A stretch of 64,000 bases of DNA from Geodermatophilus poikilotrophus (GTDB lineage: Bacteria > Actinomycetota > Actinomycetes > Mycobacteriales > Geodermatophilaceae): assembly GCF_900111455.1 (NCBI RefSeq), contig NZ_FOIE01000002.1, positions 434,001-498,000 on the forward strand. The letters are read 5' to 3'. Made by a program: the position numbers and the translations under genes. Each line of letters begins with the position of its first letter. Position 1 is the stretch's first letter. Below the pieces are notes generated by a model. That model was given only the letters and a program-made list of their open reading frames with translations, was not told the origin of the DNA and made no database searches. This document shows positions 7,317-37,600 of this stretch, piece by piece.

Positions 7317-8290
7317 ACGCCGCACCTGCGGTCGAGGCGATCGACCTGGTCAAGCACTTCGGCGAGACCCGAGCCGTCGACGGGGTGAGTTTCGTGGTCC
7401 CGGAGGGCTCGGTCCTCGGCCTGCTGGGGCCCAACGGGGCGGGCAAGACCTCCCTGGTGCGGATGCTGACCACGTTGAGCGTCCCCACGAGCGGGACGGG
7501 TCGGGTGGCCGGTTTCGACATCCTGAGGCAGCCGACCGAGGTCCGCCGCAGCCTGGGCCTCACGGGTCAGGCGGCGACCGTCGACGAGATCCTCACCGGA
7601 CGGGAGAACCTCAAGCTGATCGGCAGTCTCTACGGCCTGCCCAGGACGTTCGTCCGGGAGGCGACCGAGCGGCTCTTCGCCCGCTTCGACCTCACCGACG
7701 CGGCCGACCGGATGGCGAAGACGTACTCCGGCGGGATGCGTCGCCGCCTCGACCTGGCGGTGAGCCTGCTGGCGGCACCGCCGATCCTCTTCCTGGACGA
7801 GCCCACGACGGGCCTGGACCCGCAGAGCCGGTCGGGGCTGTGGGCGGTCCTCCGGGAGCTGGTGAGCGAGGGCACCACGCTCGTCCTGACGACGCAGTAC
7901 CTGGAGGAGGCCGACCACCTGGCCGACGAGATCGTCGTGGTGGACAAGGGCAGGGTCATCGCCGCCGGCACGCCGACGCAGCTCAAGGACCAGGCGGGCC
8001 GGGCCAGCGTCGTCGTCACCCTGACCCACGCCGCTGATCTCGACCGGGCGGCGGAGCTCATGAACTCCTGCTGCCAGGAGGTGCACGTCGAGCGGGGCAG
8101 CCGGCGGCTGACCGCACAGGCCGGCGGGCTCGGCGACATGACGCGCATCGCGGCGGTCTTCGAGACCAGCGGCATCGAACTGGACGACCTGGGTCTGGCC
8201 CGGCCGAGCCTGGACGACGTCTTCCTGCACCTCACCGGGCACCGGGCCGAGGACGCCTCGGACCTGACGAACGAGGGAGTCACCCCGTGA
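7313..8290 (+). CDS. DrrA-like ABC exporter ATP-binding protein
   Basis: A 325-residue ABC ATPase with Walker A GPNGAGKTS (about 43-51), Q-loop region LTGQAATV, signature YSGGMRRR, Walker B ILFLDEPTTGLDP and a switch region ending in TTQYLEEAD. It has the DrrA-type C-terminal extension (PSLDDVFLHLTG near 305). DrrA proteins pair with DrrB-like permeases to export antibiotics, lipids or other amphipathic compounds. Its last four bases (GTGA) overlap the permease start, so the two are translationally coupled. The MerR-type promoter upstream points to induction by a drug-like or redox signal. The substrate is unknown. Confidence 0.92.
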   Translation: MNAAPAVEAIDLVKHFGETRAVDGVSFVVPEGSVLGLLGPNGAGKTSLVRMLTTLSVPTSGTGRVAGFDILRQPTEVRRSLGLTGQAATVDEILTGRENLKLIGSLYGLPRTFVREATERLFARFDLTDAADRMAKTYSGGMRRRLDLAVSLLAAPPILFLDEPTTGLDPQSRSGLWAVLRELVSEGTTLVLTTQYLEEADHLADEIVVVDKGRVIAAGTPTQLKDQAGRASVVVTLTHAADLDRAAELMNSCCQEVHVERGSRRLTAQAGGLGDMTRIAAVFETSGIELDDLGLARPSLDDVFLHLTGHRAEDASDLTNEGVTP

Positions 8291-33805: not shown

Positions 33806-34467
33806 CCGCGCCGCCGCCCGACCCACCGCCGCCCGACCCCACCGCCGCCGAGGGCCCGACGACCGCACGGTCGCCGGGCCCTGGTGCATGCCGGCCGACT
33901 GCTGCCGGCGCTGCCCTCGGCCGACCGCGCGAACGCGACGAACCCCAGGTGAGCGCCGTCGACGTCCTGCTGTTCGTGCACCCCGGCGTTGCCGACCGCG
34001 TCCATTCTCGCAGGTCGGGACGACAGCCGTGAGGCGCCCGGACACCGCATTGCATGGCGCCCAATGGAATCGACCCGAGTTCTCCCCCGCCGCGTGGTCG
34101 ACGGACACGGTGTCGCCGCCCGCGGCGGTGAGCACCCGCGGCGGAGGCTGACAGGGCGGCGGTGGCCGCGGGCCGGGACCACCGCACCGACCGGCCAGCT
34201 CATCGACGTACCGTCAGGGTCCCGACACGCTGCGCTCGCGGGGTGCCCTCGAGCGGACTCCCGGACGCGGGGCCCCGCAACGGCGGGTGACATCTCCTCG
34301 TCGACTGCGCTCGGTGACGACGAGCCGTGCGACGCGGCGGGCGCGTGGCCGCCGGGAGACAAATCTCGTCGTCGTCCTTGCAGGGATCCTGGTCCCCACC
34401 CAGGGTTACCGGGACGTCGTCGCGGCTCCCCTCGCGACCATTCCCATCCCTTTCGCCCGGAGACGAC
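33806..34467 (+). other. long intergenic region before the exopolysaccharide operon
   Basis: About 660 bases without a supported gene. It includes CCGCATTGCATGGCG near 34045 and GGGAGACAAATCTCG near 34355, which are less GC-rich than the surroundings and may mark regulatory DNA. No known riboswitch fold was recognised. A long 5' leader or the operon promoter should lie here. Confidence 0.45.
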
Positions 34468-35562
34468 ATGCGCGTGGTCGCGCTCATCCCCGCACACAAT
34501 GAGGAAGAGACGATCGACATAGCGATCGACTCCCTGCGCAGTCAGTCGCGCCCACCCGACCGCATTGTCGTGGTCGCCGACAATTGCACCGACCGCACCG
34601 TGGAGTACGCCGTCGCAAAAGGAGTCGAGGTCTTTCCCACGACGGGGAACACCCACAAGAAGGGCGGCGCGCTGAACCAGGCGCTCGCGCGTGAGCTCCC
34701 GGGGCTCGACGACGAGGACGGCGTGTTCGTGATGGACGCCGACTCCAGCCTCGACGACGGGTTCTTCGAGTCGGCCATCGCCCTGCTGAGCCGGCCGAGA
34801 CCCGGCCGTCACGCCGCCGACCAGGGCACTCGCACAGCTCACGCGGGCCGCTACGGGGGGATCGGCGGCACCTTCCGGGGTCGCGACGGCGGCGGGTTCG
34901 TGGGATGGCTGCAGCGCAACGAGTACGCGCGCTATGCACGGGACGTCAGACGCCGTGGTGGCCGCGTGCTCGTCCTCACCGGAACGGCCACCCTGTTCCG
35001 CGTCCGCGCCCTCCGCGACGTCCACGAGGCACGGCTCGACGGTCGGCTGCCCGGGGTCGGCTACGTCTACGACACGCAGGTCCTGACCGAGGACAACGAG
35101 CTCACCTTCGCACTCCTGCACCTGGGATACCGGATCCGCTCGCCGAAGCACTGCACCCTGACCACGGAGGTCATGCCCACGTGGGGTGACCTCTACCGCC
35201 AGCGGCTGCGCTGGAAGCGGGGAGCGCTGGAGAACTGCCTGCAGTACGGCCTGACCAGGCACACGTTCGAGTACTGGTTCCGGCAGCTCTGGACCGGTCT
35301 GGGCGTCGTGGTCATCGTCGCCTACCTCCTCAGCATCGTCTGGGCCCTCGCCGTGGAAGGTGGCGTGGTCCTGCACCCCCTGTGGCTCGCGATCACCGTC
35401 CTCTTCGCCGTCGAGCGCGTGGTCACCGTCCGGTCGCGCGGCGCACTGGCGATGGTCGTCGCCTCGGTGGTCTTCGTGGAGATGACGTTCGACCTGTTCC
35501 TGCAAGGAGTGCACGGCAAAGCCGTCCTGGACTCCGTCACCCAACGAGAGAGAGCTTGGTGA
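34468..35562 (+). CDS. processive family 2 glycosyltransferase (polysaccharide synthase)
   Basis: A 364-residue GT2 enzyme. Donor-binding opening LIPAHNEEETI, the DAD metal motif at 90-92, acid TED at 207-209 and the processive QRLRW motif at 245-249 are all present. Two or three membrane helices follow (about 279-297, 304-318, 326-345). This is the layout of NodC, PgaC and HasA-type synthases that polymerise and extrude beta-linked polysaccharide; which sugar is not clear. ATG 34468 is first in a four-gene unit with the peptide, deacetylase and GH16 gene. It overlaps the next start as GTGA. Confidence 0.9.
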   Translation: MRVVALIPAHNEEETIDIAIDSLRSQSRPPDRIVVVADNCTDRTVEYAVAKGVEVFPTTGNTHKKGGALNQALARELPGLDDEDGVFVMDADSSLDDGFFESAIALLSRPRPGRHAADQGTRTAHAGRYGGIGGTFRGRDGGGFVGWLQRNEYARYARDVRRRGGRVLVLTGTATLFRVRALRDVHEARLDGRLPGVGYVYDTQVLTEDNELTFALLHLGYRIRSPKHCTLTTEVMPTWGDLYRQRLRWKRGALENCLQYGLTRHTFEYWFRQLWTGLGVVVIVAYLLSIVWALAVEGGVVLHPLWLAITVLFAVERVVTVRSRGALAMVVASVVFVEMTFDLFLQGVHGKAVLDSVTQRERAW

Positions 35563-35705
35563 GCGTGTACTTCACCCCCGCGGCCGCTGCGGCGGTCCTC
35601 CTCCCTGCGACCGGCAGCGACTACTTCTGGCTGTTCATGGCCGCATTCACCCTGGTGACCGCATTCGGCGCCCTCCTCCGCGTTCTGCCGCGCAGGGAGG
35701 AATGA
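35559..35705 (+). CDS. 48-residue LPATG-containing membrane peptide
   Basis: The GTG overlaps the stop of the glycosyltransferase (GTGA), and its own stop overlaps the deacetylase start (ATGA), so it is very likely translated. Residues 15-19 read LPATG, followed by a hydrophobic stretch (22-40) and a basic tail (R41, R45, R46), the layout of a sortase sorting signal. There is almost nothing before it: only 14 mostly hydrophobic residues and no separate signal peptide. It could be a wall-anchored primer or acceptor for the polymer, or simply a small synthase subunit in which LPATG is chance. Confidence 0.75.
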   Translation: MSVYFTPAAAAAVLLPATGSDYFWLFMAAFTLVTAFGALLRVLPRREE

Positions 35706-36481
35706 CGCGTTCTCATCCGCCCGCGAGGAGGGACAGGCCCGCCGCCGTCCTGCTGGGCCTCTCCTCGGCGGCGGCCATCCTGATGGTGCTGTGCCTCACC
35801 ACGGGGCTCATCTCGCCGTCGAGCGCGGACCCGCCCCCGCTGAACGCCTTGTCCCTCGACGACGACGCCACCTACGTCGGGGGCCACGCGACGGCCATCA
35901 TCACCTTCGACGACGGCCCGGATCCCGTGTGGACCCCACTGGTCCTCGACGTGCTTCGGGCAGCCGACGTCAGAGCGGTCTTCTTCCTCATCGGCGAGCG
36001 AGCGGCCGACCACCCGGACCTGGTACGACGGATCGCCGCCCAGGGGCACGTCATCGGCAACCACACGTACACGCACCCCGACCCCCTCGTGGTCACCGCC
36101 GGTCAGCTCGCCGAGGAGATCGACCGCACCAACGAGGTGATCGGGCGCATCACGGGCGTCCGACCCACCCTCTTCCGGCCTCCCTTCGGACACGTGACGA
36201 CGGCGGTGCAGGACCTGGTGGAGCGACGGGGGATGCACACCGTCATGTGGGACAACTCGTCAGGCGACTACGAGCAACCCGCTGCCTCGACCATGGTCGA
36301 CCGCGTCCTGGGGACGGCGCGACCCGGCCCGGGCACGATCGTCCTGCTGCACGACGGGGACGCCGGCAGGCGTTCCGGCAGCGACCGGCAGCAGACGTGT
36401 CTCGCGCTGGGACCGATCATCACCGGGTTGAGGGAGCGCGGGTTCACCATCAGCACCCATGTGCCCGTGCCCGACCCCTGA
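35702..36481 (+). CDS. NodB-type polysaccharide deacetylase, membrane-anchored
   Basis: A 259-residue protein with an N-terminal hydrophobic segment (about 14-36) that would export or anchor it. The NodB domain shows motif 1 TFDDGPD (68-74), motif 2 HTYTHP (121-126, metal His), motif 3 RPPFG (159-163), then WDNSSGDY and VLLHDG. These enzymes remove N-acetyl groups from GlcNAc polymers. Placed after a polysaccharide synthase, it suggests the polymer contains N-acetylated sugar. The GH16 gene begins one base before its stop ends. Confidence 0.92.
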   Translation: MTRSHPPARRDRPAAVLLGLSSAAAILMVLCLTTGLISPSSADPPPLNALSLDDDATYVGGHATAIITFDDGPDPVWTPLVLDVLRAADVRAVFFLIGERAADHPDLVRRIAAQGHVIGNHTYTHPDPLVVTAGQLAEEIDRTNEVIGRITGVRPTLFRPPFGHVTTAVQDLVERRGMHTVMWDNSSGDYEQPAASTMVDRVLGTARPGPGTIVLLHDGDAGRRSGSDRQQTCLALGPIITGLRERGFTISTHVPVPDP

Positions 36482-37482
36482 TGTCGGCCCGCACCGGTCG
36501 TGTTCGCCGTGACCCGGGCTCGCGCGCCCGCCACCTGGTGCGCTCGCTCTCCCCGCTCCCCGGAGCGTCCTCTCCTGCCCGGCGACCCTTCCGGCGGAGA
36601 CGCGCACGGCACGGTGCACCGCCTGCCCGGCGCGCCCGACCAGTGCTGTTCGCCTCGGCGGCCCTGGCGGCGATCACGACGGCGGTGCTCGTGACGCCCG
36701 GAGACCACGTGCGCCCCTGGCCCGGTGACGTCGACGTGCCATGGGCCCGGGAGCCGGCGTCCCTGGTGTGGTCCGACGAGTTCGAGGGTCCCGCCGGTAC
36801 GCCGCCGGACCCGCTGCTGTGGGACCTCGAGACAGGAGCCGAGTGGACCGAGGGCGAGCTGCAGTGCTACACGGCCGACCCCGCGAACGCCAGCCGGGAC
36901 GGGGACGGCCACCTCGTGATCCGCGCCCTCCGCAGTCCCGGCCACCGCTGCGAGGACGGGCGTGTCCGGGACTACACGTCGGCGCGCATGACGACTCGTC
37001 ACCACGCCGACCACGGCACCCTCGCCGTACGGGCCCGCCTCCCCACGGGTCGCGGCACGTGGCCGGCCATCTGGGCGCTCGGCAGCAACTACCCCGAGGT
37101 CGGCTGGCCGCAGTGCGGTGAGATGGACCTGGCGGAGGCCAGCGGGCAGGACCCCCGCAGCGTCGGCATCCACCTGCACGGCCCCGGCTACAGCCACGCC
37201 GACGCGCTCGGGACGAGGCACCGCCTGGAGGTCGAGGCGACCTACTTCCACGTGTACGCGGTGACCTGGAGCGACGATCGCGTGGACTTCTCCGTCGACG
37301 GGCGCCACGCCTGGGGGACGAGCCGGGACGACCTCCCCGACGGGGCGACCTGGGCGCTGGACCACTCCTTCTTCGCGATCCTGAACGTCGCGGTCGGCGG
37401 GACCCTGGCCGGGCCGCCTGATGAGACCACCACCTGGCCCCAGGAGATGACGGTCGACTACGTGCGCTTCTACAGCGCGTGA
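36481..37482 (+). CDS. GH16 family glycoside hydrolase (laminarinase-like), exported
   Basis: A 333-residue protein. After an Arg-rich ~45-residue leader comes a hydrophobic export or anchor segment (LFASAALAAITTAVLV). The GH16 domain has LVWSDEFEG, TEGELQCYT, the catalytic ExDxxE as GEMDLAEASG, and WPAIWALG. Family members cleave beta-1,3/1,4-glucans or galactans. In this operon it may trim or release the new polysaccharide. ATG 36481 shares one base with the deacetylase stop. Confidence 0.92.
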   Translation: MSARTGRVRRDPGSRARHLVRSLSPLPGASSPARRPFRRRRARHGAPPARRARPVLFASAALAAITTAVLVTPGDHVRPWPGDVDVPWAREPASLVWSDEFEGPAGTPPDPLLWDLETGAEWTEGELQCYTADPANASRDGDGHLVIRALRSPGHRCEDGRVRDYTSARMTTRHHADHGTLAVRARLPTGRGTWPAIWALGSNYPEVGWPQCGEMDLAEASGQDPRSVGIHLHGPGYSHADALGTRHRLEVEATYFHVYAVTWSDDRVDFSVDGRHAWGTSRDDLPDGATWALDHSFFAILNVAVGGTLAGPPDETTTWPQEMTVDYVRFYSA

Positions 37483-37528
37483 GACCGCGACGGGCTGCAC
37501 CGGCGACCGGAGGCCGTGGGGTGCACGG

Positions 37529-37600
37529 TGGGCGCGGCAGGGATCGAACCTGCGACCGCTCGCTTGTAAGGCGAGAGCTCTCCCGCTGAGCTACGCGCCC
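37529..37600 (-). tRNA. tRNA-Val (anticodon TAC)
   Basis: A 72-base cloverleaf on the minus strand: acceptor GGGCGCG with CGCGCCC, D arm GCTCAGCGGGAGAGC, anticodon stem CTCGC/GCGAG with loop CTTACAA (anticodon TAC), and T arm GCAGGTTCGATCCCTGC. The CCA end is not encoded. Confidence 0.97.

Follow-up and report, generated by a model that had tools for sequence, protein, structure and literature searches.

The window analysed here is a 64,000-nucleotide stretch of the genome of Geodermatophilus poikilotrophus (contig NZ_FOIE01000002.1), in which the gene for a glycosyltransferase family 2 (GT2) synthase is followed by a short open reading frame (ORF) for a one-helix membrane peptide, hereafter the mini-peptide, that carries the sortase-type pentapeptide LPATG. 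Comparison with related loci makes it fairly probable that a processive GT2 synthase has the mini-peptide as a small subunit, that this peptide has also become a sortase substrate, and that it couples polymer synthesis to the wall. The observations behind this reading are the pairing of peptide and synthase, the topology signals and motif conservation of the peptide, the sortase genes linked to the pair, the covariation of motif and sortase class, and the existence of fused and motif-less relatives. The surface retention of synthase-made polysaccharides in Gram-positive bacteria is not well understood, and an LPxTG-type tag on the tiny partner of a synthase suggests a route for coupling polysaccharide to the wall.

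Conservation of the mini-peptide beside its synthase

Of 564 relatives in a scan of named genomes, the 80 best were kept as the named loci, which leaves them biased towards close GT2s (79 titles name actinobacteria, that of L050 says 'bacterium' only), and in 79 of them a peptide ORF opening with a start codon and Tyr begins 0-44 bp past the synthase stop. The remaining locus, L071 (Pseudonocardia dioxanivorans, complete genome), holds a mini-peptide that looks frameshifted in its N-terminal part, at about 8045-8281. With a homologous peptide at 79/80 GT2 loci, conserved alongside the synthase, a chance ORF was rejected: judged by its sequences the mini-peptide is a real family, as the initial annotation had argued from coupled translation. 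Nine of 98 relatives, the window's own genome included, hold the GT2 (E<=1e-30), eight with the mini-peptide directly after it and one (L007) with another partner. Among 396 genomes drawn from the phylum, 12 held 13 matches to the peptide profile; the window's own set aside, 10 matches in 9 genomes have a GT2 directly upstream, while L103 and L104 have none and were left out as false matches (a sortase match of L103 was likewise not counted). The same draw yielded 17 GT2 matches, 11 with a mini-peptide (L098 included). Because so few genomes of the draw match the peptide profile, the trait is patchy across the phylum, with the caveat that the first pass of the search scores only part of the candidates. 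Genome G275 holds two separate GT2-peptide pairs (L098 and L106), one with a class E sortase gene directly downstream. A plasmid collection returned one match, which carries no annotation, and in a Pfam search of 39 mini-peptides no family over cut-off was seen.

The counts below refer to 87 aligned peptides (the 79 named ones and 8 from the family or order of the window, its own peptide among them) or to 97 peptides, which add the 10 from the phylum draw. Outside the 97 stand the loci with a motif-less partner (L007, L112, L114-L116, L143), those with a fused helix (L121, L144, L145), L122 with an unrelated partner, and L146, a weak GT2 match for which no partner was read; L071 is outside both sets. 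For the 79 named peptides, a start codon with Tyr next to it was taken as the start, which makes Tyr2 in 87/87 partly a matter of construction; L008 has Ile (ATC) before the Tyr, and the L098 peptide starts MANY.

A helix is present in 97/97 peptides (17-residue hydropathy: mean 2.25, minimum 1.74), and net charge is higher after than before it in 95/97, which predicts an outside tail and an inside end. Beyond residue 25 every one of the 97 carries a [KR]xxP edge, which lies within the last 22 residues in 95/97 as against 1/19 control ends, these being weak NF058583 matches and not proven sortase substrates. In the alignment, an Ala, an Arg/Lys and a Pro at the helix end (columns 54, 57 and 60) occur in 87/87 peptides each, the pentapeptide Gly in 85, a Trp in 81 and the Thr of LPxTG in 48. 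The tail usually begins Met-Tyr-Asn and is rich in Gly and Ala, with Asn3 in 71/87 and a variable, low-complexity stretch between MYNN and the motif. Its start is kept even where LPxTG has changed, which hints at a second function of the tail of ~20 residues, for example holding or priming a glycan. It is very unlikely that the cleaved tail is instead a secreted signal or a pilin-like unit, released or polymerised by the sortase: the conservation of Asn3 despite the short tail and the Lys found in 12 of 89 tails with a recognised motif would suit such a role, but the sequence from MYNN to the motif is variable and of low complexity, the other 77 tails lack Lys, and no receptor or pilin gene occurs among 17 annotated recurrent neighbour proteins.

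The pentapeptide is LAxTG in 51 of the 97 peptides, LPxTG in 7, [AS]P[FW]xG-like in 31 and neither in 8. L[AP]xTG is thus found in 58/97 (2000 shuffles gave 1.26 on average and never more than 7) and in 58/66 outside the [AS]P[FW]xG-like clade; it is kept but displaced along the tail in L060 and L100-L102. The [AS]P[FW]xG-like group follows the wider type [ASV][PS][FWL]xG, 28 members being exact and the others reading SSWLG, SPLFG and VPFLG. Conservation of the Leu-Pro-x-Thr-Gly motif in related genomes, proposed at the outset as a check, comes out mixed: the strict form is rare, and the widened form L[AP]xTG is kept in more than half of the peptides. L067 and L087 (Actinomycetospora and Pseudonocardia) keep the helix and RVLPR; their tail is longer and reads LPFLE in the pentapeptide's place. 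The flanks examined gave no sortase, and these peptides may represent a sortase-free version.

The synthase itself appears to be of the processive type by its motifs and predicted fold. DxD, TED and QxxRW are invariant in 30/30 GT2 relatives, which is the processive signature, and the AlphaFold model of the window GT2 (predicted local distance difference test, pLDDT, 89) has a helical C-terminal part (helices 267-297, 304-324 and 335-358), no helix before the catalytic domain, and PcManGT and the hyaluronan, cellulose and chitin synthases as its nearest solved folds. A sequence search of the PDB gave no match at 1e-5 with the GT2 alignment and six weak matches (best E 0.092) with the single protein. 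Models of described systems score under their cut-offs (TIGR03937 PgaC_IcaA, 68.5 bits against 422.3; TIGR03111, XrtG-associated glycosyltransferase, 26.1 bits against 363.95).

Sister synthases have helices of a like kind. A different one-helix partner, ending KxxPK and followed by a tail such as RSETRSIxPD with no sortase motif, accompanies the GT2 in L112, L114, L115 and L116, and the same motif-less partner is carried by L007 and L143, which puts the KxxPK ending in 6/6 sister loci. In L144 and L145 an intact GT2 ORF extends by further helices, of which the final one ends in FRLIN or IRLIP, and the AlphaFold model of a fused protein has two extra helices at pLDDT of about 50-67; in the frameshifted L121 the helix continues the GT2 C terminus in the shifted frame, and L122 combines a distant GT2 with an unrelated small ORF. 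The fusions point to the helix as a part of the synthase, and since sister synthases have either a motif-less stand-alone or a fused helix of like kind, the mini-peptide looks like a synthase subunit. Its description as practically only a sorting signal had to be given up: the helix and the [KR]xxP edge resemble a module common to the motif-less and fused sister partners. Several of the sister GT2s of L112, L114, L115, L116, L143 and L007 show extra hydrophobic stretches before the GT domain, and the motif-less partner with its conserved tail (RSETRSIxPD or similar) may be a family of its own.

The least probable reading is that the mini-peptide is an ordinary small LPXTG wall protein, functionally unrelated to the synthase and merely co-transcribed with it. 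In its favour, the window peptide exceeds the cut-off of the TIGR01167 LPXTG_anchor model (16.9 bits against 15.9), though it stays under that of PF00746 (Gram_pos_anchor; 13.9 against 20), and NCBI names a family of small LAXTG proteins, NF058583 (LAXTG_small_WW), which the mini-peptide resembles. This narrow model (cut-off 65) matches 24/39 mini-peptides weakly at E<=0.1, the window peptide with 14.9 bits and three others with 32.4-37.5 bits, all under the cut-off; 72 of 396 sampled genomes have weak matches and none has a match over cut-off, one weak match being the L095 mini-peptide and 14/19 other loci read holding L[AP]xTG. What speaks against an unrelated wall protein is that the peptide lies next to a single GT2 family across the phylum, that its [KR]xxP edge is specific and that fusions to the synthase exist.

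Sortases linked to the pair

A profile built from five sortases found a sortase gene beside the GT2-peptide pair in 31/80 named loci, and the Pfam model found one at L098, for a total of 32 linked sortases; the profile included the sortase of L098 itself, and the linkage there rests on the Pfam match. About 0.85 linked sortases would be expected by chance in the 1.12 Mb of the 80 loci, based on 206 sortase matches in ~273 Mb of 41 such genomes, and the number observed is ~37-fold higher. A single His and a single Cys are invariant in 32/32, as expected of the catalytic residues. Linked sortases are divergent upstream, on the same strand upstream or directly downstream. In the four loci of the last kind the gap between peptide stop and sortase start is 2 bases (L077) or 57 (L098), or the two overlap (L032, L088); the sortase of L048, 2.9 kb downstream, was counted as linked. 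No other ORF shaped like a sorting signal was seen in 30/31 linked named loci and L088 has one doubtful candidate, in a scan whose patterns included [ASV]P[FWL]xG and which missed the locus's own peptide in 2/31 (L021, L055).

By best NCBIfam class, 29 of the linked sortases are class F and three class E. The class F sortases all stand with [AS]P[FW]xG-like peptides, at 29/31 such loci (L051 and L057 have no linked sortase in the DNA examined), and the class E sortases stand with LAVTG, LAMTG and LPITG peptides. The class F model NF033748 (cut-off 166) is matched at E<=1e-30 by 29/32, and the six class F sortases scored singly (L015, L024, L032, L046, L048, L055) are all over its cut-off; L098 exceeds the cut-off of the class E model NF033747 (177.6 against 160). 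On this sequence evidence the pentapeptide motif and the sortase class change together. Loss of LPxTG had been named in advance as a finding that would count against sortase use, and it does occur, in one clade of 31 peptides; it was dropped as a refutation when linked class F sortases appeared at those loci, and since 29/31 have one, the loss looks like a switch of sortase partner. In a quick GT2 tree with long-branch warnings, the [AS]P[FW]xG-like peptides group into a single fork of 31 rows (support 90, unstarred), the two Nocardioides form another and L098 stands apart; linked sortases occur at these three separate places, though they may have been inherited from one old linkage.

That the peptide acts solely as a transmembrane subunit of the synthase, structural or regulatory, with an incidental pentapeptide and with linked sortases that serve other substrates, is rather unlikely. 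IcaD/PgaD and the small Bcs subunits are parallels for such a role, motif-less relatives and fusions do exist, and the residues of the helix end are kept throughout the alignment whereas the motif Thr is not. Against an incidental pentapeptide stand the frequency of L[AP]xTG outside the [AS]P[FW]xG-like clade compared with the shuffled mean for all 97, the excess of linked sortases and their position directly after the peptide in four loci, the missing alternative substrate at nearly all linked named loci, and the shift of the motif along with the sortase class.

Several observations weigh against a subunit that is also a sortase substrate. L[AP]xTG is absent from 39/97 peptides, a count that suits a mere subunit, and the 8 with neither motif, among them LPFLE in Pseudonocardia and Actinomycetospora and LTYAG in Arsenicicoccus, retain the [KR]xxP edge. 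No linked sortase was found in 49/80 named loci, including 39/41 of those with L[AP]xTG; L077 (155.7) and L088 (142.3) fall under the class E cut-off of 160, though class E is their best model; and the class F link of the one-clade [AS]P[FW]xG-like peptides may go back to one ancient event with later rearrangements. Reading of the peptides gave no N-terminal signal peptide (the tail opens the peptide; no predictor was run), and translocation of the N-terminal tail is therefore assumed. Sortases are present in 59/59 genomes searched (18/18 and 41/41, the latter standing for 41 of the 80 named loci), which makes co-occurrence at genome level uninformative, and it was rejected as a test. The window's genome encodes four sortases, two each of classes E and F, which speaks for sortase use; that none lies on the window's contig speaks against it. 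One of the four (G000 C7:423725-424590) is a class F sortase directly after an ORF whose end weakly matches the small-LAXTG sorting model; class F sortases may thus also have conventional neighbours and other substrates. Finally, the joining of a glycan to tail and wall is an inference.

With these points on the scale, the topology signals and the linkage still favour sortase use, an idea of the initial annotation, over its refutation, provided that the motif is changed to L[AP]xTG. The co-occurring sortase gene that had been looked for is found beside the pair far more often than expected, its presence somewhere in the genome being unspecific, and of the two adverse outcomes named beforehand, a genome lacking any sortase was not encountered among the 59 searched.

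The operon of the window

The four tightly packed ORFs of the window (Table 1) were confirmed where they had first been read, with the peptide in the order of a C-terminal sorting signal (LPATG, helix, RVLPRREE). Its length needs correction: most homologues have the start codon directly before Tyr, the equivalent of which is GTG at 35565, and a start there (46 residues, 2 bases past the GT2 stop) is more likely on sequence grounds than one at GTG 35559 (48 residues, with the GTGA overlap described originally). The deacetylase and GH16 genes have one base in common (36481). By eye, the N terminus of the deacetylase is hydrophobic, as a signal or anchor, and so is that of the GH16 protein, as an anchor; the latter scores 74.9 against NF052454 EglC, under the cut-off of 700.

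Table 1. Features of the GT2-mini-peptide operon, in window coordinates
Feature	Position	Strand	Basis
GT2 synthase (P0001), 364 residues	34468..35562	+	PF00535/PF13632/PF13641 over cut-off; AlphaFold model
Mini-peptide (P0002), 46 residues (48 if GTG at 35559 is used)	35565..35705	+	ORF; starts of homologues
LPATG codons, putative sortase pentapeptide	35601..35615	+	ORF reading; TIGR01167; motif conservation
Single transmembrane helix of the mini-peptide (ends approximate)	35622..35678	+	Hydropathy
RVLP codons, conserved [KR]xxP edge motif	35679..35690	+	97/97 mini-peptides
NodB-type polysaccharide deacetylase (P0003)	35702..36481	+	PF01522 (Polysacc_deac_1) 120.9 bits, over cut-off; ATGA overlap with peptide
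GH16-family glycoside hydrolase or transglycosylase (P0004)	36481..37482	+	PF00722 58.9 bits, over cut-off

The tight four-gene operon of the window was rejected as the unit: the 3' neighbour changes between loci, and the core is therefore GT2 plus peptide. By eye, an enolase-like ORF follows in L012 and a sugar-transferase-like ORF in L010; elsewhere sortase, GH26-like or GH16-like genes take this place. GH16-like genes recur as a BLAST cluster of 20 loci (Pfam: L051 and L057 over cut-off, L061 below, L029 and L082 no match), a deacetylase cluster comprises 5 loci, with L051 confirmed by Pfam, and a GH26-like cluster 4, with Pfam confirmation for L077. Deacetylase and GH16, recurrent and not universal, look like accessories outside the core.

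A tRNA-Val gene lies at window 37527-37600 on the minus strand, 44 bp past the GH16 stop, and G+C is ~0.68-0.71 over GT2, peptide and deacetylase (window 34250-36250) compared with 0.77 upstream. Together with the patchy distribution, the tRNA neighbour and the G+C shift suggest that the GT2-peptide block was acquired horizontally.

Predicted mechanism and known systems

If the mini-peptide is both subunit and substrate, its C-terminal helix and [KR]xxP edge would sit in the membrane in contact with the synthase, basic end in the cytoplasm, and the short N-terminal tail would lie outside, ending in the sortase pentapeptide. L[AP]xTG would be the substrate of a class E sortase, in most cases a housekeeping enzyme encoded away from the locus, and [AS]P[FW]xG that of a linked class F sortase. 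After a cut before the Gly, the sortase would join the tail to an amine, for which lipid II or the wall is the likeliest site, leaving the helix behind. The likely purpose would be to couple synthesis of the polymer, a presumed polysaccharide, to the wall: either the tail carries or holds the glycan as an anchor, or the synthase is switched or released when the tail is removed. The polymer could then be modified or trimmed by deacetylase and GH16. In a stronger version the mini-subunit would bear the growing or finished glycan on its Met-Tyr-Asn tail, which a sortase of class E or F would free and join to the wall, so that actinobacteria would fix the synthase-made polysaccharide covalently to peptidoglycan; this version is tentative and somewhat doubtful.

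These loci matter because they tie together, at the level of the genes, a synthase, its mini-substrate and a class E or F sortase. The resulting system is small and open to direct tests, with three genes, a ~20-residue product and [AS]P[FW]xG as the pentapeptide predicted for class F. A tail-borne glycan, if true, would be a protein-primed or protein-anchored glycan. Class F sortases were still said to be without a known physiological role in 2026, and in that study deletion of all four of them in Actinoplanes missouriensis left the phenotype unchanged (PMC13251363). The mechanism, if true, would give class F sortases a first physiological role.

Processive GT2 enzymes with a small membrane partner are familiar from IcaAD/PgaCD and from BcsA with its small subunits, and the pair described here is alike in that respect. 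Those small subunits are not known to carry a sortase motif; the mini-peptide differs from them in having one helix, the [KR]xxP edge and an outside tail. No description of a system made of GT2, mini-peptide and sortase was found in the literature surveyed, which is part of the literature only, in line with what the initial annotation had said of a system of this shape. The PEP-CTERM/EpsH system is of the exosortase type, unlike the sortases here, and has many targets. In it a protein sorting signal is associated with exopolysaccharide genes (PMC1569441). The nearest known shape is the exosortase XrtG/glycosyltransferase system of lactobacilli, with a Firmicu-CTERM protein, XrtG and two XrtG-associated glycosyltransferases (PMC12854382); it uses an exosortase where the present loci have true sortases of class E or F, and two glycosyltransferases where these have one GT2 and a target of ~50 residues. 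The Firmicu-CTERM model matches 1/39 mini-peptides, weakly (E 0.0051). In the GspA/LcpA/SrtA system of Actinomyces oris, a glycopolymer is put on a protein that sortase then fixes to peptidoglycan (PMC6381275). There it is an LCP enzyme that links glycan and surface protein, and the portion of that paper available describes no synthase subunit or mini-peptide; GspA offers a precedent for a glycopolymer carried on a sortase substrate (PMC6381275).

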